Shown here: positions 24,152 to 44,226 of the stretch, piece by piece
Numbering within the stretch: the first letter of the stretch is position 1
How the letters are laid out: the number at the start of each line of letters is the position of its first letter
Origin: Asticcacaulis sp. AND118
GTDB lineage: Bacteria; Pseudomonadota; Alphaproteobacteria; Caulobacterales; Caulobacteraceae
NCBI RefSeq assembly: GCF_020535245.1
Contig: NZ_CP084910.1
Span: forward strand, 2,456,501-2,520,500
Direction of reading: 5' to 3'
DNA: 64,000 nucleotides
The notes under the pieces: model-generated
Databases searched by the model: none
What the model saw: only the letters and a program-made list of their open reading frames with translations
What the model was told of the DNA's origin: nothing
Made by a program: the position numbers and the translations under genes

Positions 24152-24999
24152 GCTCAGGCCCTATTAATTAACACGAGGGATTCCCAAAGGGTGGGTGATG
24201 TGATTCACTTTTGGAAGGAGGTGGATCATGGATGAAGTGTTTTTGCTGTCTGAGGTGCAATTCAACCGGATACGCCGGTATTTTCCGTTGTCGCACGGCG
24301 TTCCTCGCGTGGATGATCTGCGCGTGGTCAGCGGGATTATTTACGTTATAAAACATGGTCTTCAGTGGAAGGATGCCCCCAAGGGCTATGGTCCGCACAA
24401 GACGCTTTATAACCGTTTCATGCGCTGGAGCCGGATGGGCGTTTTCAATAGGGTTTTCACCGCTCTGGCCTCGCAGGCTGGTGATCCGGAGCAACTGATT
24501 ATCGACGCCACGCATCTCAAAGCCCACCGCACCGCAGCCAGTCTGCTAAAAAAAGGGGATTTCCCCGCCTTCTCGGACGCACCAAAGGCGGCCTGAACTC
24601 CAAACTTCATGCGGTTACCGACCCGCGCGGCAGGCCTATCCGCCTGTTGCTGACCGCCGGACAGGTCAGCGACTTCAAGGGCGCAGCCTTGTTGTTGGAT
24701 ACACTGCCCAAAGCAAAAACTTTGCTGGGCGATCGGGGATATGACGCCAACTGGTTCCGTAACGCTCTGAAAGGTAAGGGAATAAATCTCTGCATCCCTT
24801 CAAAGCGTAATCGAAAAGTTCAGATCGAGCATGACAAAATACTCTATAAGCAACGCCATAAGGTCGAAAACATGTTCGCCAAACTCAAGGACTGGCGGCG
24901 CGTACACACTCGATACGACCGCTGTGCCCACACTTTCTTCTCTGCCATACTCATCGCCGCTACCGTCATCTTCTGGCTCTGATCAATGAGTCCTGAGCC
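24151..24999 (+). mobile_element. IS5-family insertion sequence (IS427-like group)
   Basis: An 849-bp element flanked by a TA duplication (24149-24150 and 25000-25001). The terminal inverted repeats start with GGCTCAGG and agree at 15 of the first 20 positions. Inside is a transposase in two frames joined at an A7 slippery run. TA duplication, size and two-frame layout fit the IS427 group of IS5. The copy looks intact. Group assignment is from memory of family features, not from a search. Confidence 0.82.
24228..24982 (+). CDS. IS5-family transposase, two frames joined by -1 frameshift
   Basis: Frame one runs 24228-24596 (122 residues, MDEVFLLSEVQFNRIRRYFP..) and contains the first catalytic Asp in IIDATHLKAHRTAAS. 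Frame two runs to 24982 and contains Asp in LLGDRGYD and Glu in QRHKVENMFAKLKDW, completing a DDE set. The join lies at CTAAAAAAAGGG (24546-24557): slipping back one base on the seven A residues fuses LLKK to RGFPRLLGRTKGGLNSKLHA, matching the family. GGAAGGAGGTGGATC before the ATG is a strong ribosome binding site. Without the shift the product is a 122-residue fragment. Confidence 0.85.
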
Positions 25000-25035
25000 T
25001 AATTCCCTCGAACTGACCTTACCGGAATTCCGGGC

Positions 25036-25063
25036 AAAAAAAAGCCGCGCATTGCGGCGCGGC
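25036..25063 (-). terminator. rho-independent terminator of the candidate small RNA (minus strand)
   Basis: On the minus strand GCCGCGC / GCGCGGC form a 7-bp stem with a CGCAAT loop, followed by eight T. No minus-strand protein gene lies between it and 25.77 kb, so it must end an otherwise unknown transcript. Confidence 0.8.
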
Positions 25064-25200
25064 CTTAAAGTTTACAGGGAGGAAACGCCCAGGAAGGGCA
25101 ATCAGCGCCGAAGCGCTGAACATCTCCAATTTAGTTTGCGACGCAGCAAAACGCAAGGCCTGATGCGTTAAGCATCTTCAACAAAAGTTACAAAAGCAAT
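25036..25200 (-). ncRNA. candidate small RNA with stacked anti-Shine-Dalgarno hairpin loops
   Basis: Read on the minus strand, three hairpins follow each other and end in the terminator at 25036-25063. First, TCAGCGC TTCG GCGCTGA (25102-25119), a 7-bp stem with a UUCG tetraloop. Second, GCCC TTCCT GGGC (25087-25099). Third, GTTT CCTCCCTGT AAAC (25070-25086), whose loop is complementary to a Shine-Dalgarno sequence. This order resembles the alphaproteobacterial RNAs with CCUCC loops (cuckoo/CcsR type). The 5' end is uncertain; 25200 is a rough limit. A 34-codon frame starting MFSASALIALPG after TTGGAG overlaps it and is the main alternative. Function is inferred. Confidence 0.6.
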
Positions 25201-33806: not shown

Positions 33807-36392
33807 CTATTTCGGGCAGACTGCGTCGCCTTCGTTGGAGGCCAGCTTCACCGCCGTATAGGTCAGTTTCAGTGGCTGTTCGGAACGCAGCGCGAAGGGC
33901 ATGCCGATCTGCGTCGTGTTCAGCCCGATCGCCGCGAAGCAGTTCAGCTTGACCTTCAGCGTATGGAACTGACCGTCGGCCTTGAGCAGCTTGGCCACAT
34001 CCACCTGCTGATCGACGAAGCGGTCGCGACCCAGGGCCAGCATGACCGGGCCGGTCGGCGCCGAATCCAGCTTATAGGTGATGGAGATGGCCAGTTCACC
34101 CGTCGTCTGACGGCTGAGGTCAACCGTATCGCCAGCGAAATAGGCTTCGCCCTTGCCCTGACCGGTGAAGGTCAGCAGGCGGCCATTTTCCTGAGCCCCG
34201 GCATCGACCGTCGCCTGAGTGACCACGCCCTTGGGCGATTTGAGAGTGCCGTGATCGCCCTCGACTGCGCCATCCGTATCGGCGAGGTAGAACTTCCACG
34301 GGGCCCGCACGCGACCGGCGTTGAAATAGGTGTCGACATTGACCACGCCGGCGTCTTTCAGACCGGCCTCTTCCGACAGGGGCAGAAGGTCGCCCTTATC
34401 GGCATAGGTCAGGCCGTAGCCATAGGCGAACAGCGGATCGTAGCCCGGCGTGCCGACATTGAGCGGCAGACCGGTGGCGGTCTTCGGCCACGAGAAGCTG
34501 AGCTTGCCCTTGAAGTCGTTGCGCGCCTTGCCGGCCTTGTCGCCGATCAGCACGTCGGCCACGCCCCCGCCTTCAGTACCCGGCAGGAAGGCCGCGACGA
34601 AGGCGTCCGACGCGTTGATTTCCGGGTTCACCCACATCGGACGGCCCGACAGGAAGACGGTGACGACCGGAATGCCGGCCTTTTTGAGCTTCTTGATCAG
34701 CGCCAGATCCTTGCGGTCGCCCGGCTGATAGTCCAGCGTCGGACGGTCGCCCTGGAATTCGGCATAGGGGTCTTCGCCGACCACGACGATGGCGACGTCC
34801 GGCTTCTTGCCCTTATAAGTACCGTCGGCCGACAAGGTGGCCTTGCCGCCCGACGCCTTCACCGCCTCGCTGATGCCGCCGAAGATCGACTGACCGTTGG
34901 GGAAGTCGGAATTGGCATTGCCCGTGCCCTGCCAGGTAATGGTCCAGCCGCCCGACTGCTTGCCGATATTGTCGGCGCCGTCACCGGTGACCAGCACGTT
35001 CGCGCCGCCCTTGACCGGCAGCAGAGAGCCGTTGTTCTTCAGCAGGACCAGAGATTCACGCACGGCCTGACGGGCCACGGCGCGGTTTTCGGCCTTGCCC
35101 AGATTCTCCCAGTGACCGGCAATCGCGCGATCCTTAGGCGCGCCCAGGGTGAACAGACCGCCCTTGATCTTGGCGCGCAGAATGCGGCGCACGGCGTCAT
35201 CGAGGCGCGCTTGCGAGATTTCGCCCGACTTCACCTGAGCCAGGGTGTTCTCGTAGATGCCCTTCCACGAATCCGGGGCCATGAACATGTCGATGCCGGC
35301 ATTGAAGGCCTGCGGACAGGAAACCGTGGTGCAGCCCGGCACCTGACCTTGCGCGTTCCAGTCGGAAACGACGAAGCCGTTGAAGCCCATGCGGTGCTTG
35401 AGCACGTCGGTCAGCAGATATTTGCTGCCGGTCAGCTTCTCGCCGTTCCAGCTCGAAAACGACGCCATGACCGACAGGGCCCCGGCTTCGATCGACGGCG
35501 GGTAACCGGCATTGTGGATGTTGGCCAGTTCCTCTTCGCTGATCTGGGCGTCGCCCTGATCCTTGCCGTTCAGCGTGCCGCCGTCGCCAAGGAAGTGCTT
35601 GGCCGAGGCCATGATATGACCCGGCTGGATGCCTTCGTCGCCGCCCTTTTCGCCCTGCAGGCCCTCGACCACCTTGCCGGCGAAGGCCGCCACATCGGCG
35701 GGGTTTTCGGAATAGGACTCATAGGCGCGGCCCCAGCGCTTGTCGCGCGACACGGCCACGGTCGGGGCGAAGGTCCAGTCGACGCCCGCCAGCGACATCT
35801 CGTAGGCGGTGACGCGGGCGATGTCCTTCATCAGTTGCGGATTGCGCGTGGCGCCCAGACCGACATTGTGCGGGAAGATGATGGCGCCGACGAGGTTCGA
35901 GTGACCGTGCACGGCGTCGATGCCGAACAGCAGCGGGATGCGGGTCTTCGACGGATATTCGAGCGAGGCGCGCCAGTAGGCGTCGGCCAGATCGAGCCAT
36001 TCCTGCGGCGTGGCGCGCTCATTGCCGCCGGGCGACGAGTTGCCGCCGGCGAGGATCGAGCCCAGCGGATACGTTTTCAGGTCTTCCGGCTTCACGGCGG
36101 AAATGTCGCCCTGCACGGTCTGACCGACCTTCTCCTCGACGGTCATGTCGGCCATGATGGCGTCGATCTTCGCCTCGACATCGGCGTCGATCAGACCGGC
36201 GTCCTTGGTCGTCGGCCATACCGGATTGACCCTCACCTCGGCCGGTTCCGCCGCCGCGACGGGGGCCGCGGTGGCGGGTTCAGCCGTGCCGCTCTTATCG
36301 ATAATGGTGACGCAGCCCGAAGTCGCCAGCGCCGTCAGCAAAAGGCCTGCGGACACGCCGCCTTTCAGCGCGCCCTTCAAAGATTTCCGCAT
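33807..36392 (-). CDS. GH3 beta-glucosidase-type lipoprotein
   Basis: An 861-residue protein. The signal peptide ends in ATSGC, a lipobox, so the enzyme is probably membrane-anchored and faces the periplasm or outside. GH3 domains follow: the barrel (PLLFGIDAVHGHSNLVGAIIFPHNVGLGATRN, KHFLGDGGT), the nucleophile Asp344 in GFVVSDWNAQG, the second domain (ESLVLLKNNGSLLPVKGG, VVVGEDPYAEFQGDR) and a C-terminal extension of about 200 residues that looks like a carbohydrate-binding sandwich. It likely releases glucose from beta-glucans or cellodextrins. AGGAAGAG precedes the start at 36392. A LacI-type operator lies about 100 bases upstream. Confidence 0.92.
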   Translation of the reverse strand: MRKSLKGALKGGVSAGLLLTALATSGCVTIIDKSGTAEPATAAPVAAAEPAEVRVNPVWPTTKDAGLIDADVEAKIDAIMADMTVEEKVGQTVQGDISAVKPEDLKTYPLGSILAGGNSSPGGNERATPQEWLDLADAYWRASLEYPSKTRIPLLFGIDAVHGHSNLVGAIIFPHNVGLGATRNPQLMKDIARVTAYEMSLAGVDWTFAPTVAVSRDKRWGRAYESYSENPADVAAFAGKVVEGLQGEKGGDEGIQPGHIMASAKHFLGDGGTLNGKDQGDAQISEEELANIHNAGYPPSIEAGALSVMASFSSWNGEKLTGSKYLLTDVLKHRMGFNGFVVSDWNAQGQVPGCTTVSCPQAFNAGIDMFMAPDSWKGIYENTLAQVKSGEISQARLDDAVRRILRAKIKGGLFTLGAPKDRAIAGHWENLGKAENRAVARQAVRESLVLLKNNGSLLPVKGGANVLVTGDGADNIGKQSGGWTITWQGTGNANSDFPNGQSIFGGISEAVKASGGKATLSADGTYKGKKPDVAIVVVGEDPYAEFQGDRPTLDYQPGDRKDLALIKKLKKAGIPVVTVFLSGRPMWVNPEINASDAFVAAFLPGTEGGGVADVLIGDKAGKARNDFKGKLSFSWPKTATGLPLNVGTPGYDPLFAYGYGLTYADKGDLLPLSEEAGLKDAGVVNVDTYFNAGRVRAPWKFYLADTDGAVEGDHGTLKSPKGVVTQATVDAGAQENGRLLTFTGQGKGEAYFAGDTVDLSRQTTGELAISITYKLDSAPTGPVMLALGRDRFVDQQVDVAKLLKADGQFHTLKVKLNCFAAIGLNTTQIGMPFALRSEQPLKLTYTAVKLASNEGDAVCPK

Positions 36393-36489
36393 GTCTTCTC
36401 TTCCTTCTTCCCGCAGCGTTTGAACGCCGGTCTTTATTTGTATCCCAAGCGCTTGAGGGCATGAAATCCCCTCTGGCATTCACACTTAA

Positions 36490-36503
36490 TGACAGCGCTA
36501 TCA
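36490..36503. promoter_or_regulatory. LacI-type operator in the GH3 promoter
   Basis: TGACAGCGCTATCA differs by one base from the perfect palindrome at 36689 and 44213. It sits between a minus-strand TTGACG (36509-36514) and CATTAA (36486-36491), where a bound repressor would block RNA polymerase. A second perfect palindrome, CGCTATC A GATAGCG, overlaps it at 36496-36510. Confidence 0.68.
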
Positions 36504-36688
36504 GATAGCGTCAAGTCGCGAGCGGCGCTCAGGCCCGCCATTCGCACGGGTGAAAACGATTTTACTACCTCATCCGTCAAAAAGGGCTGCGCCTTTAAAT
36601 TATTGACATAAAGAGGATTTCGGCGCGGTTTTTCACGTCTGCGCCGAAAATCGACACGCTTAATCGCCGGCAATGTCAAAAACATGCT

Positions 36689-36702
36689 TGACAGCGCTGT
36701 CA
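36689..36702. promoter_or_regulatory. LacI-type operator overlapping the small-RNA promoter
   Basis: TGACAGCGCTGTCA is a perfect palindrome identical to the zwf operator at 44213-44226. It overlaps a TTGACA (36688-36693) that could be a -35 box for plus-strand transcription; a weak CAAATT stands 17 bases further on. Confidence 0.72.
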
Positions 36703-36716
36703 GATTAAAGCAAATT

Positions 36717-36921
36717 CGAGTTACCCGTTGGTGCTCCTTTTTGAACGGTCCCTCCGACCGTTCGAATCCGAGTTTAAGATCCTGGCTGAGCGCGACTTCT
36801 TTCCCTTTTTCACGGTCGCGCGTCCGCAGGGTTTTAAATCGTCATCTGGATTTGGCATTATTCAGATGGCAATGGCCTTATATCCGGCAGCCCGGTTTTT
36901 CCGGACTGCCGGTTTTTTTTT
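36717..36921 (+). ncRNA. candidate LacI-controlled small RNA with CCTCC hairpin loop
   Basis: The interval from the operator to the terminator at 36921 has no convincing protein gene. Near its 5' end is a perfect 8-bp hairpin GAACGGTC CCTCC GACCGTTC (36743-36763) whose loop is an exact anti-Shine-Dalgarno sequence. A second possible pairing is ATCTG..CAGAT near 36844-36866. It ends in a strong terminator. The 5' end at about 36717 is a guess from the promoter position. The layout, a repressible promoter, an exposed CCUCC loop and an intrinsic terminator, is what a trans-acting RNA would need; the function is inferred. Confidence 0.6.
36884..36921 (+). terminator. strong rho-independent terminator of the candidate small RNA
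   Basis: CCGGCAG c CCGG TTTTT CCGG a CTGCCGG: two stacked stems followed by nine T. No protein gene ends in front of it on the plus strand. Confidence 0.85.
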
Positions 36922-36939
36922 ACTCAAATCCGGAAATTA

Positions 36940-37039
36940 GAGCGCAATCCGATAAAGTGGGCACCACTTTTCGGAAAAATTGCGCGACCACTCAAAAACT
37001 GAGAGCGAGATGATGTTTCCACTTTAAATCATTTCGCTC
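36940..37039 (+). mobile_element. 100-bp palindromic element, copy B
   Basis: The same two-hairpin element as copies A, C and D, with GAGCGCAATCC at the left and CATTTCGCTC at the right. TA precedes it, while TG follows, so the duplication has decayed. It ends 11 bases before the lacI-type stop codon. Confidence 0.8.
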
Positions 37040-37050
37040 TGGCCTCGAAA

Positions 37051-38097
37051 TCAGGCTCTACGCACCGACTGGCGTTCGATCAGCGCAAACGGCAGCAGCC
37101 GGTCGGGCGATACCCCCTCTTCGACCTCTTCCCGCGTCAGCAGAATATCGGCGGCGGCATAGGCCAGGGCTTCGACCGGCTGGCGGATGGTGGTGACGTG
37201 CGGCCAGACCAGCATCGCGCCCGGCACATCGTCGAACCCCGTGATTGAAACCTCGTCAGGGACCCGGATACCGGCCTGCTGAGCCGCCGCCATGACGCCG
37301 AAGGACATGTAGTCGTTGGAGGAAAAAACCGCCGTCGGCCGGGTCTTTTCGGCGAACAGGGCGCGCCCGGCCTCGACGCCGGATTCGTAGGAGAAATAGC
37401 CCTGCTTGATCCATTCCGGACGCGGCTCAATCCCGCTTTCGCGCAAGCCCCGCACGAAACCTTCATAGCGTTGATGGCTGCCCCCGTGTTCGGGGTGCCC
37501 CATAATAAAGCCGATATCCTTATGCCCCATGCCGATCAGGTGCCGGGTCATCTCATAGGCGGCCTGGGTCTCGTCCATGCGTACGCAGGGCGAACGGCCC
37601 GGATTGAGGAAGGGCGAAACCCGCACATAGGGCACGCCCGCGGCTTCGATGGCGTGCAGCACCACCGCCATGTCGCACAAAGGCGGCGTCAGGATGACGC
37701 CGTCGAGACGGATGGTGGCCAGCAGGCTCGAAATCTTCGACACCAGATCCGGCGCATGGCTGTCCTGCGGCTCGATCAGCAGGTGATAGCCCTCTTCGCG
37801 TGCCCGCGTAATGACGCCGCGCTGCATGTCGGTGATGTAGGCGGCGTTGGGGTTGTCGTAGAACAGGCCGATCAGGAAACTGCGCGAGCCGGCCAGCGAG
37901 CGGGCCAGCAGGTTCGGACGGTAATGCAGCAGATTGGCGGCTTCCTGAACCTTCTGCCGCGTTTCGGGCCGCACATTGGGTTCGTTGTTCATAACGCGCG
38001 AGACGGTCTTGATCGACACGCCCGCCAGCCGCGCCACGTCGTTGATGGTCGAGGTGCCTCCTGCGCCCGGCACGCCGCGGTCCTTCGGTGTTCTCAT
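37051..38097 (-). CDS. LacI-family transcriptional regulator
   Basis: A 348-residue repressor. The N-terminal helix-turn-helix is TINDVARLAGVSIKTVSRVMNNEPNVRPETRQKVQEAANLLHYRPNLLARSL (about residues 16-68), with the hinge helix at LLARSL. The sugar-binding domain follows (FLIGLFYDNPNAAYITDMQRG, VRMDETQAAYEMTRHLIGMGHKDIGFIMGHP, FSSNDYMSFGVMAA, SITGFDDVPGAMLVWPHVTTIRQP). It lies between the GH3 gene and the Entner-Doudoroff genes; the three TGACAGCGCTGTCA-like sites are its likely targets. The inducer may be glucose or a pathway intermediate such as KDPG. Confidence 0.9.
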   Translation of the reverse strand: MRTPKDRGVPGAGGTSTINDVARLAGVSIKTVSRVMNNEPNVRPETRQKVQEAANLLHYRPNLLARSLAGSRSFLIGLFYDNPNAAYITDMQRGVITRAREEGYHLLIEPQDSHAPDLVSKISSLLATIRLDGVILTPPLCDMAVVLHAIEAAGVPYVRVSPFLNPGRSPCVRMDETQAAYEMTRHLIGMGHKDIGFIMGHPEHGGSHQRYEGFVRGLRESGIEPRPEWIKQGYFSYESGVEAGRALFAEKTRPTAVFSSNDYMSFGVMAAAQQAGIRVPDEVSITGFDDVPGAMLVWPHVTTIRQPVEALAYAAADILLTREEVEEGVSPDRLLPFALIERQSVRRA

Positions 38098-38261: not shown

Positions 38262-38891
38262 CTAACCGGCGAACTTTTGCACCGCTTCGGCCGCCAGCCT
38301 GGAAATCTCGGCCCACTGGCCTTCCTTCATCGCCTTTTCCGGCGCAACCCACGAGCCCCCGACGCACAGGACATTGTCCAGCGCCAGAAAGTCGGCTGCA
38401 TTATTGAGGCCGATGCCGCCGGTCGGGCAGAACTTGACCTGCGGCAGCGGGCCGCCGATGCCCTTCAGCATGGGCACGCCGCCGGCAGGCACCGCCGGGA
38501 AGAACTTCAGACGCTCGAAGCCCCATTCCAGCGCCTTCATCACTTCCGAAGCCGTGGAAACGCCCGGCAGCAGCGGCAGAGCATCCTGCTTGGCCAGAGT
38601 CTTGGTCAGGCCCGGCGACACGCCGAACTTGGCGCCGGCTTCAGCGGCCTTTTCGGCGTCCCTGGGGGTCAGCAGGGTGCCCGCGCCGACGATGGCGTCG
38701 GGACGCTCCTTGGCGATCAGGCGGATGGCGTCCAGCGCGCAGTCGGTGCGCAGGGTTATTTCCAGCACCTTGATGCCGCCGGCCATCAGGGCGTCGGCCA
38801 GAGGCAGGGCCATCTCGATGTCAGGGATGACCATGACCGGCAGGACAGGTCCGGTGGTCATGATGGAGTGAACGTCGAGCGGCTTGGTCAT
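38262..38891 (-). CDS. eda: 2-dehydro-3-deoxy-phosphogluconate (KDPG) aldolase
   Basis: A 209-residue cytoplasmic class I aldolase that splits KDPG into pyruvate and glyceraldehyde 3-phosphate, the last Entner-Doudoroff step. It shows PVMVIPDIEMALPLADALMAGGIKVLEITLRT with the catalytic Glu, VGAGTLLT, KFGVSPGLT, and the Schiff-base Lys in RLKFFPA, then FCPTGGIGLNNAADFLAL. AAGGAAATGCC precedes the ATG. It follows glk on the same strand after a repeat region of 153 bases, so it may be read from its own promoter or with the operon. Confidence 0.95.
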   Translation of the reverse strand: MTKPLDVHSIMTTGPVLPVMVIPDIEMALPLADALMAGGIKVLEITLRTDCALDAIRLIAKERPDAIVGAGTLLTPRDAEKAAEAGAKFGVSPGLTKTLAKQDALPLLPGVSTASEVMKALEWGFERLKFFPAVPAGGVPMLKGIGGPLPQVKFCPTGGIGLNNAADFLALDNVLCVGGSWVAPEKAMKEGQWAEISRLAAEAVQKFAG

Positions 38892-38910
38892 GGCATTTCC
38901 TTGTTAATTA

Positions 38911-39034
38911 TCCGCCCCTGCAAAGCGGGGGAGGTGTCAGCGAAGCTGACGGAGGAGGCGTTCTTTGCGTAACCTGCCCCTCCGCCCCTTCGTGGTCCCC
39001 TCCCCCGTACGCTTCGCTACAGGGGAGGATGTTA
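38911..39034. repeat. GC-rich inverted repeat between eda and glk
   Basis: CCGCCCCTGCAAAGCGGGGGAGG at the left and CCCCTCCCCCGT..ACAGGGGAGG at the right, with GGAGGAGGCG and CCTCCGCCCC arms between. It belongs to the same broad CCTCCCC repeat family as 1413 and 17927. Confidence 0.6.
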
Positions 39035-39044
39035 TGCTGTGGCA

Positions 39045-40061
39045 CTAAGCCGTTATCTCGGCATCCGTCAAGGCGTTCGCAGCCCCGACCAGGGCGGCGC
39101 ATTCGTGGGTAATCACCCGCGACGGAATGGTCTCAACCAGAGCCGTCATCGGGGCCTTGGCCTCCATGCGCGCCCGGAAACGGCTCTCATCGATATAGCG
39201 CAGCAGTTTCGGCGTGATGCCGCCGGCGATGAACATGCCGCCCGTCGCGCCGTGGAACAGGGCGAGGTCGCCGCAGACGGAGGCCAGAATGTCGAGGAAG
39301 GTTTCCACCGTATAGCGAGACCCCTGCGCGTCAGGACCGTCCAGATGCGTGATCTGGGCCGGGGTCAGGTCCAGCGTCGGTTCGCCACGCACATTGGTCA
39401 CGGCCCTGTACAGATTGACGAGGCCCGGACCCGACAGGACCATTTCGATGGTCACCCGGCCGTGCTTTTTCGACAGGAAGCGGTGGATTTCGCGTTCGAA
39501 ATCGTTGACCGGCGCCCAGGACGGGTGCCCGCTCTCGGTAGACAGGCAATAGGGACCGTGCGGTCCGTCGATCAGCACCGAAGCGCCGAAGCCCGTCCCC
39601 GCGCCCATGACCGACAGCGGCCCCGGCTTGGCGGTCTTTACCGGACCGATGGTCCGGGTATCTTCGTCGGTCAGGTGCGGCAGGGAATAGGCGATCGAGG
39701 CCAGATCGTTGATCAGGCGGGATTTGCGCGCGCCCGTATGCCTGGCCAGTTCCGTTTCGGTGACCAGCCAGTCGAGATTGGTGAACTTTATGCTGCCGTC
39801 CACCACCGGGCCGGCCACGGCGGCCACGGCGAAGTCGAACTCAGGACGCGCGTCGAGCCCTTTCAGATAGTCGCCGATGACTTCATAGAGATCGTTATAG
39901 CCGTGCGTCTCGAAGCTTTTGAAATCCGACAGCTTGGTATGGCCGTCGCCGCGTTCGGCTACGGCAAAGCGCGCATTGGTTCCGCCGATATCACCGACAA
40001 GGCCTTTGAACACCTGAGACGAGGCTGAAAAAGTGGTCTGATTGTCAAAAAGCGCCGTCAT
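39045..40061 (-). CDS. glk: glucokinase
   Basis: A 338-residue cytoplasmic kinase that phosphorylates glucose with ATP. It belongs to the E. coli Glk type, not ROK: GLVGDIGGTNARFAVAE (phosphate loop), FTNLDWLVTETEL, LINDLASIAYSLP with the catalytic Asp, GAGTGFGASVL, STESGHPSWAP and MFIAGGITPKLL. It lies 6 bases downstream of edd and is the last gene of the zwf-pgl-edd-glk run. It links sugar uptake and glycosidase action to the pathway. Confidence 0.95.
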   Translation of the reverse strand: MTALFDNQTTFSASSQVFKGLVGDIGGTNARFAVAERGDGHTKLSDFKSFETHGYNDLYEVIGDYLKGLDARPEFDFAVAAVAGPVVDGSIKFTNLDWLVTETELARHTGARKSRLINDLASIAYSLPHLTDEDTRTIGPVKTAKPGPLSVMGAGTGFGASVLIDGPHGPYCLSTESGHPSWAPVNDFEREIHRFLSKKHGRVTIEMVLSGPGLVNLYRAVTNVRGEPTLDLTPAQITHLDGPDAQGSRYTVETFLDILASVCGDLALFHGATGGMFIAGGITPKLLRYIDESRFRARMEAKAPMTALVETIPSRVITHECAALVGAANALTDAEITA

Positions 40062-40067
40062 TATACC

Positions 40068-41885
40068 TTACCAGAAAACGGAACCGCCCGAGACGGCTTC
40101 GCCGACCAGACGCCTGAACGGCGCGAACAGTTCTCGCCCCAGACCGTTGGCATCCGCCGGTCGGGGCGCGCTTTCCCGCGCCATCAATTGCGCTTCATCA
40201 CCTATGAAGCTCAGGTTCCCGTTTTCACAGTCAACGCGCACTATATCCCCTGACCGTAGTTTTGAGATCGGTCCGCCGTCAACGGCTTCTGGGGTCAAAT
40301 GTATGGCTGAGGCCACCTTACCACTGGCCCCCGACATGCGTCCATCCGAGACGAGGGCCACCTTGCGGCCCTGATCCAGCATGGCCGACAGCGAGGGCGT
40401 CAGGCTGTGCAACTCAGGCATACCATTGGCTTTTGGCCCCTGAAAACGCACAACGCAAATGAAATCGCCTTCCGGGAGCGCATTTTCCTTGAACGCCTTC
40501 AGGAAATCGTCCTGATCGTCAAAAACCGCGCACGGGCCTTCGATGAAGCGATGCTCCGGCTTGACCGCCGAAATCTTGGTCACCGCCACGCCGAGATTGC
40601 CGGTCAGTTCGCGCAGGCCCCCTTCGGGCGAGAAGGGATTGGTCACGGGGCGCAGAATGTCGGCGTCCAGCGTTTCCGCCGGGGCGTCGATCCACACCAG
40701 CTCGCCATCGCGTAAGGTAGGCTCCTTGCCATAGGCGGCCAGACCCTTGCCCCAGATGGTGTTGACGTCGGCGTGGAGCAGGCCGGCGGATAGCAGTTCC
40801 TTGATCACGAAACCCATGCCGCCCGCGGCGTGGAAGTGGTTCACATCGGCCGAGCCGTTGGGATAGACGCGCGCCAGCAGCGGCACGACGCCCGACAGAT
40901 CGTTCATATCCTCCGGCTTGAGGATGATGCCCGCCGCGCGCGCCATGGCCGGCAGGTGCAGGGCGTGATTGGTCGAGCCGCCGGTGGCCAGAAGGCCCAC
41001 CACGCCGTTGACGATGGCGCGTTCGTCGATGACATCGGCCATATAGGCCGGCGCATCGCTCAGGGCCGAGGCCCTGGCGGCGCGTTCGACCGCGGCGCGG
41101 GTCAGGGCGTCGCGCAGTTCGCCGCGCGGCGGCACGAAGGCCGCGCCCGGCACGTGCAGGCCCATGATTTCCATCAGCATCTGGTTGGAATTGGCCGTGC
41201 CGTAGAAGGTGCAGGTGCCTTCGGCGTGATAGGACGCCATTTCGGCAGCCAGCAGCGCGTCGCGGCCGACCTCGCCCTTGGCGTACTGGGTGCGAATCCT
41301 GGCCTTTTCCGGATTGGGCAGGCCCGACGACATCGGACCCGACGGCACGAAGATGACCGGCAGGTGCCCGAAGGCCAGCGCGCCCATCACCAGACCCGGC
41401 ACGATCTTGTCGCAGATGCCCAGCATCAGGGCGGAATCGAAGGCGTCGTGGCTGAGCGCGATAACCGTGCCCATGGCGATGACGTCGCGGGAGAACAGGC
41501 TCAACTCCATGCCCGGCTTGCCCTGGGTCACGCCGTCGCACATGGCGGGCACGCCGCCGGCGACCTGAGACGTGGCGCCTGAATGACGGGCGTAGTCGAG
41601 TATTTTTTCCGGATAACGGTAATAGGGCGCGTGCGCCGACAGCATGTCATTATAGGCGGTGACCACGCCGATATTCGGCACCTTGTCCAGCGCCAGAGAC
41701 AGCTTGTCCGCCTCGGTCATCGGCGCGGCGACGTGGGCGTAATTGGCGCAGGACAGTTTCTTGCGGCGCGGCTCGCGCGACTTGTAACGCTCGACGCGCG
41801 CCAGATATTCTGTGCGCGTGGCCTTCGACCGCTCGATGATGCGATCGGTGACAGATTTGAGGACGGGATGAAGCTCGGTGGTCAT
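40068..41885 (-). CDS. edd: 6-phosphogluconate dehydratase
   Basis: A 605-residue cytoplasmic enzyme of the IlvD/Edd family; it dehydrates 6-phosphogluconate to KDPG. Cysteines for the iron-sulfur cluster are seen in GGVPAMCDGVTQGKPGMELSLFSRD, LMLGICDKIVPG and EGTCTFYGTANSNQMLMEIMG. The C-terminal swivel domain has VALVSDGRMSGASGKVASAIHLTPEA. The length fits the family. It lies 32 bases after pgl and 6 bases before glk. Confidence 0.96.
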   Translation of the reverse strand: MTTELHPVLKSVTDRIIERSKATRTEYLARVERYKSREPRRKKLSCANYAHVAAPMTEADKLSLALDKVPNIGVVTAYNDMLSAHAPYYRYPEKILDYARHSGATSQVAGGVPAMCDGVTQGKPGMELSLFSRDVIAMGTVIALSHDAFDSALMLGICDKIVPGLVMGALAFGHLPVIFVPSGPMSSGLPNPEKARIRTQYAKGEVGRDALLAAEMASYHAEGTCTFYGTANSNQMLMEIMGLHVPGAAFVPPRGELRDALTRAAVERAARASALSDAPAYMADVIDERAIVNGVVGLLATGGSTNHALHLPAMARAAGIILKPEDMNDLSGVVPLLARVYPNGSADVNHFHAAGGMGFVIKELLSAGLLHADVNTIWGKGLAAYGKEPTLRDGELVWIDAPAETLDADILRPVTNPFSPEGGLRELTGNLGVAVTKISAVKPEHRFIEGPCAVFDDQDDFLKAFKENALPEGDFICVVRFQGPKANGMPELHSLTPSLSAMLDQGRKVALVSDGRMSGASGKVASAIHLTPEAVDGGPISKLRSGDIVRVDCENGNLSFIGDEAQLMARESAPRPADANGLGRELFAPFRRLVGEAVSGGSVFW

Positions 41886-41917
41886 TTTTTATCGTTTCGC
41901 TGTGGAGTTTCCGGCCC

Positions 41918-42655
41918 TTACGGACACCAGACGATGTCGATGGGCACGGGGCATTGGGCGAGGAATGCGCCTATGGGCGCAGTACCGGGATCGGGGTCGG
42001 CGACGGCGGCTTTCAGCGCCTCAAGCTTTTCCTGACCGGTAATGTATAGCACGATGCGGCGGGAGCCGTTGAGGGCCTTCACGCTCAATGTGATGCGCGG
42101 AAGCTTGGGTTCAGTCCCGCCCGTCGCCGGTTCGACCGGCAGGACCAGCGTTTCGGTGTCGTAGACCGTGGCGTTGATCGGATGGCCGGGGAAGATCGAG
42201 GCGTAGTGCTTGTCCGGCCCCATACCCATCAGGGTCAGATCGAATGCGGGCGCTTCGCCGGCGTTGAAACCTCTTAGCAGAGCTTCAGCCTTTTCAGCGG
42301 ACGCACCGGCATCATTGATGTCGCGGATCAGGGTTTCGAACACCATGCCTTTGGCGATCACCGGCGCGGCGGCTTCGGCCATCATCTTTGTGTTGGACGC
42401 CGCGTCATCGACGGGCACGAAGCGCTCATCGACCTGAGACAGGATGACCTTGTCCCACGGCAGGTCGAGCGTATCGAGTTGCTGATAGACGGGCTTGGGC
42501 GTGCCGCCCCCTGCCCCGATCCACAGCGCCCGGCCGCGTTCGGCAATGGCGGCGGACAGCGCCTCACCGATGGCGGCGAGGACGGCTTTTTCCGCCTGCG
42601 CCGCGCTGGCGAAAGACCGTACCGCGTGCTTACCGAAGGTGAGCGCCTCAGTCAT
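41918..42655 (-). CDS. pgl: 6-phosphogluconolactonase
   Basis: A 245-residue cytoplasmic enzyme that hydrolyses 6-phosphogluconolactone. The NagB-like fold shows ALWIGAGGGTPKPVYQQL (phosphate site), DKVILSQVDERFVPVDDAASNTKM and DLTLMGMGPDKHYASIFPG. The usual GLG-x-DGH motif reads GMGPDKHYAS here, with Lys in place of Gly. The gene overlaps zwf by 8 bases, so translation is coupled. Confidence 0.93.
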   Translation of the reverse strand: MTEALTFGKHAVRSFASAAQAEKAVLAAIGEALSAAIAERGRALWIGAGGGTPKPVYQQLDTLDLPWDKVILSQVDERFVPVDDAASNTKMMAEAAAPVIAKGMVFETLIRDINDAGASAEKAEALLRGFNAGEAPAFDLTLMGMGPDKHYASIFPGHPINATVYDTETLVLPVEPATGGTEPKLPRITLSVKALNGSRRIVLYITGQEKLEALKAAVADPDPGTAPIGAFLAQCPVPIDIVWCP

Positions 42656-44126
42656 TCCACACCCGCTTGTCGCGGTCGAGCAGCATATAGGCGCTCATCG
42701 GGCCATTGGTCCCGGCGGGATAGATTTGCGGCTTGGGATAGGCTTCGGCCCACGCGGCCGAAATGCCATCGACCCAGGCCCAGGCGGCTTCGACTTCGTC
42801 ACGGCGGACGAAGGCGGCGTTGTTGCCGTTCAGCGCGTCGAGGATCAGGCGCTCATAGGCGATGCGGCGGCGCGGCGGCTTGTCGCCGTTCCCGTCGAAC
42901 GCGCTTTGCAGCGACAGCGACAGGTCGAGCGGCTGAAGCTGCATCCCGTCGGCACTGAGGCCGGGGGCTTTGTTCATCACCGTCAGCTTGATGTCTTCGT
43001 CGGGTTGCAGGCGGATGACCAGACGGTTCGGCTGAGCCGACGCGCCGAAGATCGAATGCGGCACCGGCCGGAACTGGATCACCACCTCGGTGGTGCGCGA
43101 CGGCAGGGTCTTGCCGGTGCGCAGATAGAAGGGCGTGCCGGCCCAGCGCCAGTTGGCGATCTCGGCCTTGATGGCGACATAGGTTTCGGTGTTCGACGGC
43201 GAGCCCTTTTCGGCCTCGTAACCGGCGACCTGCTTGCCTTCGGCAAAGCCCGGACCGTACTGGCCGCGCGCGGTGACGTCGCGCACGTTCTCGGCGGTGA
43301 TAGGTTTCAGAGAGCGCAGCACCTTGACCTTTTCGTCGCGCAGGGCGTCGGCATTGAAGTTCGACGGCGGCTCCATGGCCAGCAGGCAGACCAGTTGCAG
43401 CAGGTGGTTCTGCACCATGTCGCGCAGCGCGCCGTAATCGTCGTAATAGCCGAGGCGGTCGCCCGTGCCGACGGTTTCGGACACCGTCACCTGAACGTGG
43501 TCGATCGACTGAGCGTTCCACAGGGGCTCGAACACGGTATTAGCGAAGCGCAGGGCCAGCAGGTTCTGCACCGTCTCCTTGCCGAGATAGTGGTCGATAC
43601 GGAAGGTGCGCGCTTCATCGAAGGCGTGGGCGACCGAGTCGTTGATGACCTTCGAAGACGGCAGATCGCGGCCCAGCGGCTTTTCGATAATGACGCGGTT
43701 CGGGGCCTTGCTCAGGCCGGCGGCTTCCAGATGCTCGCAGATCGGCTTGAACAGCGACGGCGAGACGGAGAGGAAATAGACGACCTCCAGCGCATCGACC
43801 TCACCCAGTTCGGCCTTCAGCTTGGCGCCCCATTCCGGGTCGGAGGCGTCGAGCGCGATATGGCTGAGGCGCGGCAGGAAACGGTCGAGCGTGGCGGTTT
43901 CGAGATCGCCGCCGATGCGCTTTTGCACGGCGGTGCGCACGCGCTCGACAAAGGCCGCGCGGTCCACCGCTTCACGCGCCACGGAGACGATGCGCAGATC
44001 GTTGGCCAGAAACCCGTCCTGATCGAGCATGGCCAGAGACGGCCACAACATGCGCAGGGCCAGATCGCCGGTGCCGCCAACGAGGACGAAGACGGGTTTA
44101 CGAACGGAGGAGGTCGATGGGCTCAC
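42648..44126 (-). CDS. zwf: glucose-6-phosphate 1-dehydrogenase
   Basis: A 492-residue cytoplasmic enzyme that oxidises glucose 6-phosphate with NAD(P). It shows the nucleotide site FVLVGGTGDLALRMLWPSL (a variant of GASGDLA), VIIEKPLGRDL, the catalytic RIDHYLGKETVQNLLALRF and VQVTVSET. The start codon is GTG at 44126 with AGGA about 9 bases upstream. It is the first gene of the Entner-Doudoroff operon and has a perfect LacI-type operator 87 bases upstream. Confidence 0.95.
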   Translation of the reverse strand: MSPSTSSVRKPVFVLVGGTGDLALRMLWPSLAMLDQDGFLANDLRIVSVAREAVDRAAFVERVRTAVQKRIGGDLETATLDRFLPRLSHIALDASDPEWGAKLKAELGEVDALEVVYFLSVSPSLFKPICEHLEAAGLSKAPNRVIIEKPLGRDLPSSKVINDSVAHAFDEARTFRIDHYLGKETVQNLLALRFANTVFEPLWNAQSIDHVQVTVSETVGTGDRLGYYDDYGALRDMVQNHLLQLVCLLAMEPPSNFNADALRDEKVKVLRSLKPITAENVRDVTARGQYGPGFAEGKQVAGYEAEKGSPSNTETYVAIKAEIANWRWAGTPFYLRTGKTLPSRTTEVVIQFRPVPHSIFGASAQPNRLVIRLQPDEDIKLTVMNKAPGLSADGMQLQPLDLSLSLQSAFDGNGDKPPRRRIAYERLILDALNGNNAAFVRRDEVEAAWAWVDGISAAWAEAYPKPQIYPAGTNGPMSAYMLLDRDKRVWND

Positions 44127-44212: not shown

Positions 44213-44226
44213 TGACAGCGCTGTCA
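44213..44226. promoter_or_regulatory. LacI-type operator upstream of zwf
   Basis: TGACAGCGCTGTCA, a perfect palindrome, lies 87 bases upstream of the zwf start and is identical to the site at 36689-36702. It probably places zwf-pgl-edd-glk under the LacI-type regulator at 37051-38097. Confidence 0.72.

Follow-up and report, generated by a model that had tools for sequence, protein, structure and literature searches.

Sugar-induced small RNAs (sRNAs) that oppose gluconeogenesis are, to our knowledge, little known outside Gammaproteobacteria and Firmicutes. One gluconeogenic enzyme is pyruvate phosphate dikinase, encoded by ppdK. In Caulobacter, the LacI-family regulator GluR adjoins the same Entner-Doudoroff operon that figures in this work; its predicted regulon comprises zwf-pgl-edd-glk, pykA, gnl-gfo, ppdK and sucABCD, and glucose is proposed to release GluR from DNA (PMC4052901). 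The alpha-r8 sRNAs have been described in all Alphaproteobacteria save Rickettsiales, and one of them, SisA of Caulobacter crescentus, has a role in carbon starvation, as has its sponge CrfA (PMC12559287). In Staphylococcus aureus, the sRNA RsaI is repressed by the LacI-family protein CcpA, pairs with the Shine-Dalgarno (SD) sequences of glcU_2 and fn3K, and blocks their translation (PMC9266662).

The locus described here was found in a window of 64,000 nucleotides (the whole stretch of DNA that was analysed) from Asticcacaulis sp. AND118, genome G000 below, at G000:C1:2456501-2520500. A plus-strand unit sits between a GH3 gene (minus strand; start 36392) and a LacI-family gene (37051-38097, minus strand), and consists of an operator/-35 element TTGACAGCGCTGTCA (36688-36702), an RNA of about 200 nt and a nine-T terminator ending at 36921. 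The features of the locus are given below, where members are the Asticcacaulis genomes in which the RNA was found.

33807-36392, minus strand: divergent GH3 beta-glucosidase-like gene (Pfam PF00933/PF01915; divergent homologue in 23/23 members)
36490-36503, minus strand: GH3 operator TGACAGCGCTATCA (exact in 23/23 members, 98-199 bp from the sRNA operator)
36688-36702, plus strand: LacI-type operator TTGACAGCGCTGTCA fused to the sRNA -35 box (from sequence; above chance in the window; 23/23 members)
36710-36717, plus strand: probable -10 box GCAAATTC (read by eye; 6/8 match to the Caulobacter consensus)
36723-36921, plus strand: predicted small RNA of about 199 nt (fold z, homologues in 23/25 genus genomes, covariation; 5' end inferred)
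36740-36766, plus strand: hairpin 1, with loop CCTCC at 36751-36755, lineage-specific (fold; in 5/23 members)
36772-36839, plus strand: hairpin 2, a long stem with a 16-nt open loop (18 consensus pairs, 11 changed on both sides)
36798-36812, plus strand: conserved pyrimidine-rich loop TCTTTCCCTTTTTCA, the proposed pairing seed (identical in 21/23 members)
36841-36870, plus strand: hairpin 3, with conserved loop TTGGCATT (10 pairs, 7 changed on both sides; 100% of cells paired)
36884-36921, plus strand: intrinsic terminator and nine T (sequence, fold; 3/6 consensus stem pairs changed on both sides)
37051-38097, minus strand: gene of a LacI-family repressor that is probably GluR, oriented convergently to the sRNA (PF00356/PF13377; beside eda and zwf-pgl-edd-glk)
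38262-44126, minus strand: Entner-Doudoroff genes eda, glk, edd, pgl and zwf (NCBIfam and Pfam)
44213-44226, minus strand: perfect operator upstream of zwf (palindrome scan, sequence)

Compared by description, the predicted RNA resembles RsaI as a free-standing sRNA under a LacI-family sugar regulator that would pair with SD sequences, whereas RsaI is repressed in abundant glucose and produced under starvation, the reverse of the sign proposed for the Asticcacaulis RNA, and works in a different host (PMC9266662). RsaI further has G-rich regions for other sRNAs (PMC8216469). RoxS/RsaE and its sponge RosA in Bacillus, likened by description as well, have unpaired C-rich regions that act on central-metabolism mRNAs and a sugar-linked control through CcpA and RosA; RoxS itself, however, is under Rex and ResD, and no link to ppdK was seen in that source's account of RoxS/RsaE (PMC8216469). 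By analogy, the Asticcacaulis RNA is proposed to work like these SD-blocking metabolic sRNAs. With the alpha-r8 sRNAs it shares an alphaproteobacterial origin, an exposed C/U-rich segment and an intrinsic terminator (PMC12559287). The alpha-r8 core is UUUCCUCCCU, in a 77-nt model, as against a core of UCUUUCCCUUUUUCA in a genus-restricted RNA of about 200 nt. RF00519 (suhB/mmgR), which we take to be the Rfam family of the alpha-r8 sRNAs (SisA-D), gave no match at E <= 5 at 36400-37100 or at E <= 0.5 in the loci of 12 other members; the whole of Rfam likewise gave no meaningful match to the locus at the gathering level (window) or at E <= 5 (36400-37100), and nothing at E <= 0.5 in those 12 loci. 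Nor was a single-stranded UUUCCUCCCU core found, CCTCC occurring in 7/23 transcripts outside that context. Judged by model match or by core, the Asticcacaulis RNA is not an alpha-r8 member.

A true RF00519 sRNA is present elsewhere in the window (25029-25106, minus strand; 62.4 bits), the sole gathering-level Rfam match there. It has the TTTCCTCCCT core described for Caulobacter SisA-D (PMC12559287) and is flanked by transposase-like ORF pieces (24228-24982, by eye) and a purine permease gene.

Two elements of the unit had been named in the first-pass annotation and were confirmed. The LacI-type palindrome overlaps TTGACA as claimed (TGACAGCGCTGTCA at 36689-36702, TTGACA at 36688-36693), and the double-stem terminator is formed by a nested stem at 36884-36912 followed by nine T at 36913-36921. 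The -10 box was judged against GCTANAWC, presumably the Caulobacter -10 consensus, and in the relative G020 it reads GCTAAATC. A consensus scan of 36400-37100, which requires an E. coli-type -10 and short loops, returned zero promoters and zero terminators. By sequence, a putative promoter (operator/-35) and a terminator of its own were recognized in the intergenic region in 23/23 members. The GH3 start codon was picked by a script with the help of the SD sequence, and the GH3 ORF extends to 36479. Directly past the terminator lies a palindromic repeat (36937-36986, plus strand) that looks like a dispersed repeat and weakly matches one end of the Brucella sRNA family RF02599 (27.3 bits, where the gathering score is 398).

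The 209-nt strand at 36715-36923 folds at -86.5 kcal/mol, compared with -56.9 +/- 3.9 for shuffled sequences (z -7.56, 0/200), forming in succession hairpin 1 (loop CCTCC), hairpin 2 (open loop of 16 nt), hairpin 3 and the terminator. The hairpins at 36772-36839 and 36841-36870 had been missed on first reading and are conserved far more than the CCTCC hairpin. A DNA similarity search found the RNA in 22/100 genomes at E <= 0.01, 21 of them in the genus; the match in G096, from another genus, covers 23 nt only. The covariance-model search of relatives, suggested in the first-pass annotation, revealed a genus-restricted family: a model built from 21 members found the RNA in 23/25 genus genomes, at E <= 4.7e-26 and in one copy per genome, and in none of the 274 genomes from elsewhere in the family that completed the sample of 299, which was searched with stricter filters. 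In the alignment of these 21 of the 23 members, on which the covariation counts rest, 97.7% of cells pair and 21/34 pairs carry double-sided changes; 0/500 shuffles equalled any of five measures, and sliding the partners by one base lowered pairing to 53-58%. A pattern scan of contigs returned 36 stretches, 10 in Asticcacaulis and 26 in unrelated taxa that were taken as chance. Near the GluR-like genes of other genera (10/30 loci, about 1.5 kb on each side) some operators were seen but no such RNA unit. Of the literature matches listed, none dealt with an sRNA of Asticcacaulis or with one that targets ppdK.

The statement that the interval held no credible gene was borne out. The sole ORF of at least 100 aa over it (36684-37013, 109 aa) has no Pfam or NCBIfam match; its ATG is present in 1/23 members and the frame stays open for more than 80 codons in 6/23. 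Among ORFs starting and stopping inside the transcript, no internal frame recurs across the 23 members. The coding reading was rejected on these counts, and the comparison marks the 109-aa ORF as a chance product of this genome. Structure is conserved where no coding frame is. Compensatory changes support the helices, and reading frames are not maintained; the interval is, as far as comparison of these genomes goes, an undescribed family of non-coding RNA, so far seen only in Asticcacaulis.

Which part of this RNA would act is answered differently by conservation than by the window's sequence. An 8-bp hairpin with a CCTCC loop complementary to the SD core had been described near the 5' end, and it is indeed present (GAACGGTC-CCTCC-GACCGTTC at 36743-36763, extending to 11 bp at 36740-36766 when folded). 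As the conserved working part of the RNA it does not hold up, because 5/23 members have the hairpin and 7/23 have CCTCC at any position of the transcript; the two further members carry it in another 5' hairpin's loop (G015) or in a mostly unpaired stretch (G012). The CCTCC loop was therefore rejected as the conserved seed. What survives of the earlier claim is a loop able to pair with SD sequences, the conserved one being TCTTTCCCTTTTTCA at 36798-36812. Its two variants are a single T-to-C change in G010 and alterations at both edges in G015. The pairing part of the loop had a computed opening cost of 0.0 kcal/mol in 23/23 members. This conserved unpaired seed is accompanied by complementary sites at candidate target starts, weakly so in the window's own genome.

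Operators of the same type connect the RNA with sugar genes. Allowing two or fewer mismatches, the window contains the palindrome 3 times, the expected number being 0.21. The sRNA operator, TTGACAGCG[CT]TGTCA, is kept in 23/23 members, all of which also have the second operator TGACAGCGCTATCA (one mismatch to the palindrome) with the divergent GH3 homologue. DNA looping between the sRNA and GH3 operators was considered and rejected, as their spacing of 98-199 bp follows no phase rule. Perfect 15-mer operators were found at three places in this genome: at the sRNA, at zwf-pgl-edd-glk, and before a putative transcript with two tiny ORFs. The palindrome shared among these sites and the repressor gene adjoining zwf-pgl-edd-glk (with eda intervening here) are both as expected of a GluR regulon. 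A LacI-family gene beside Entner-Doudoroff genes is found in Asticcacaulis as in Caulobacter, whose predicted regulon holds ppdK; the words 'small RNA' do not occur in the main text of the Caulobacter paper (PMC4052901). On operator evidence, the predicted sRNA is part of a LacI-family regulon with the GH3 gene and zwf-pgl-edd-glk, and in this respect the first-pass claim of a sugar-controlled RNA is supported; in our proposal, sugar would control it.

The repressor acting on the sRNA operator is probably the neighbouring GluR-type LacI-family protein. Its gene is convergent with the sRNA in 22/23 members, at distances of 15 nt to a few kb, and in G005 lies 10 kb off on the same strand as the sRNA. 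Four LacI-family genes of this genome match at E <= 1e-60, the neighbour at 37051-38097 among them. As for the two genus genomes in which no RNA was found, G017 has a GluR-like gene with no operator in the locus around it, and G023 (a 370-contig assembly) has no close GluR match (best 43% identity).

Further operators were noticed outside the unit. The third perfect one, outside the window at G000:C1:1256160-1256480 (locus L289, from about 1512), precedes about 300 nt that hold two 24-aa ORFs, MEKLIERF... and MKYLANLA..., and end in what resembles a terminator. This stretch has DNA matches, some of them short, in 18/25 genus genomes and no Pfam match. The MEKLIERF... peptide or a close variant is readable in most of 16 loci, MKYLANLA... 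being swapped for another small ORF in some. This stretch is possibly a sugar-induced micropeptide pair. One-mismatch or perfect operators at G000:C1:2417070 (L119) and, in other genera, at L340/L341 lie close to genes resembling MFS-type sugar transporters by eye, which suggests that the regulon may include sugar uptake in more than one genus.

The exact 13-mer complement of the loop, GAAAAAGGGAAAG, occurs at 27 places in the 25 genus genomes, 22 in the RNA and 5 outside it. One outside site is the ppdK ribosome-binding site of G020 (GTGAAAAAGGGAAAG TTC ATG); three (G001, G006 and G023) represent a single Lys-rich coding site, in frame and repeated between these genomes, which is not a start, and the fifth (G000) does not lie at an evident start. 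The 11-mer AAAAGGGAAAG has 24 sites in six whole genomes: 6 in the RNA, 6 at ppdK and 12 elsewhere. No recurrence was seen among the last 12, one of which (G016) precedes a plausible start of a gene that is TonB-receptor-like by eye.

ppdK is present in 25/25 genus genomes, and its leader can form at least ten contiguous pairs (G-U allowed) with the common loop in 24/25, and nine in this genome. A script that anchors on the closest ATG extracted the leaders of ppdK and kduD, and the same common loop was used for their energies in every genome, also in G010 and G015, whose loops differ slightly, and in G017 and G023. The mean for ppdK leaders was -14.7 kcal/mol in 25 Asticcacaulis genomes (worst -10.8) and -7.1 in 30 other Caulobacteraceae (best -10.5; the mean includes one mis-anchored leader, L270), with no overlap between the two ranges. 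None of 1000 shuffled loops reached the observed mean, and single leaders were equalled at frequencies of up to 0.17, the ppdK statistics being descriptive and not probabilities because relatives share descent. Counting against ppdK as the target, its site persists in G017 and G023, in neither of which the RNA was found.

Among sampled gene starts, ppdK ranked 1/315 in G020, 1/317 in G022 and 44/391 (-10.8) in G000, against a background of 20 stretches of 20 kb from each genome (for G000 also the window), with genes called by a home-made caller; the stretches were evenly spaced, but that of ppdK, and in G020 and G022 that of the sRNA, were deliberately included. With opening energies, calculated for starts with a duplex of -8 or below, ppdK kept first place among the 74 starts scored in G020 and the 64 scored in G022, and stood at 15/125 in G000 (-5.6); its net energy was also weak in G001 (-4.4) and G011 (-5.3). 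SD sequences are purine-rich in any case, which counts against the specificity of the ppdK match. Across the genus, ppdK is the best-supported candidate target.

Within about 490 nt upstream of ppdK no operator was found in any of the 25 Asticcacaulis genomes, in a scan that started 600 nt before a motif about 35 codons inside the gene, nor was the ppdK operator reported for Caulobacter seen in the 30 leaders from other genera with the consensus used. The lack of a nearby operator in Asticcacaulis makes indirect control of ppdK plausible. In Caulobacter ppdK is a predicted direct target of GluR (PMC4052901), whereas in our proposal the Asticcacaulis gene would be reached through the RNA.

In this genome a second candidate target, kduD, appears stronger than ppdK by predicted pairing. 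Net energies among the 125 starts scored were -15.1 for kduD, -12.6 for GH3, -11.0 for murE and -5.6 for ppdK. Across the genus kduD is only partly supported as a target, with a match at -12 or below in 12/23 readable leaders (10/40 kduD-like matches had no locus, and 7/30 loci were unreadable and were dropped). A broader range of purine-rich leaders may be within reach of the pyrimidine loop. Just upstream of several called genes of this genome (loci L193, L196, L198, L199 and L205) are repeats of the type CCCTCAAGGGAGAGGGGG, which match pyrimidine loops strongly, and probably spuriously.

We propose, at a probability of roughly two in three, that the RNA is a free-standing, trans-acting sRNA that is released by sugar from a GluR-type repressor and blocks translation of gluconeogenic or alternative-carbon mRNAs (ppdK; kduD here). 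Without sugar, the LacI-family repressor would sit on the operator over the -35 box and block sRNA transcription. Sugar would release the repressor, and the RNA would be made alongside the GH3 glucosidase and the Entner-Doudoroff enzymes. Its long stem would hold the pyrimidine-rich loop UCUUUCCCUUUUUCA open at the tip, where it may pair with purine-rich ribosome-binding sites. By occluding that of ppdK (in some species that of kduD or others), the loop would shut the pyruvate-to-PEP route during sugar burning. The RNA would in this way invert the repressor's sign, so that gluconeogenesis or other carbon use is turned off when sugar breakdown is turned on. More tentatively, and at slightly under even odds, we suggest a genus-wide rewiring, in which a repressor of glycolytic genes reaches ppdK with opposite sign by de-repressing a newly evolved sRNA and not at the ppdK promoter, as was predicted in Caulobacter.

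Other readings differ from the proposed SD-blocking sRNA mainly in what the loop would meet. A real sugar-controlled sRNA might have a main function other than ppdK, its loop being broadly anti-SD (kduD, GH3, murE, transporters) or directed at another RNA. The higher net energies of kduD, GH3 and murE in this genome, the 11-mer before the TonB-receptor-like start in G016 and, for an RNA partner, the sponging of the Caulobacter alpha-r8 RNA SisA by CrfA (PMC12559287) speak for such a function; we nevertheless think it fairly unlikely, since ppdK alone recurs in the six-genome 11-mer search and its leaders separate cleanly from those of the outgroup, in a comparison that covered ppdK. If the RNA instead served to titrate a protein, pyrimidine-binding or Hfq/CsrA-like, as a decoy and did not function by base pairing, an exposed loop that is nearly all pyrimidine, and identical in 21/23 members while the stems vary, would be expected as well. 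The strong purine tract at ppdK in the RNA-bearing genus, absent from the 30 outgroup leaders, makes this quite improbable.

Action in cis only, as antisense to or a transcription roadblock against the downstream LacI gene, is suggested by the convergent orientation in 22/23 members and by a LacI gene merely 15-25 nt past the terminator in G020, G006 and G001. In this genome, however, about 130 nt separate the end of the terminator from the LacI stop codon, the spacing ranges from 15 nt to about 10 kb, the gene is on the same strand in G005, and the sequence of the RNA is conserved throughout; we regard cis action as highly improbable. The chance that the interval is a small protein gene or its leader is close to negligible: a 109-aa ORF does cover the region, but its ATG is found in this genome alone, lengths vary across members without a triplet rule, and the sequence changes keep pairing.

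The proposed trans-acting sRNA would constitute a new, well-delimited sRNA family in Caulobacterales, with an operator, a structure, a seed and a candidate target tied to the switch between glycolysis and gluconeogenesis. The loop and the target permit a direct reporter test. Comparison with Caulobacter, in which GluR is predicted to act on ppdK directly (PMC4052901), could show a regulon trading a DNA site for an RNA.
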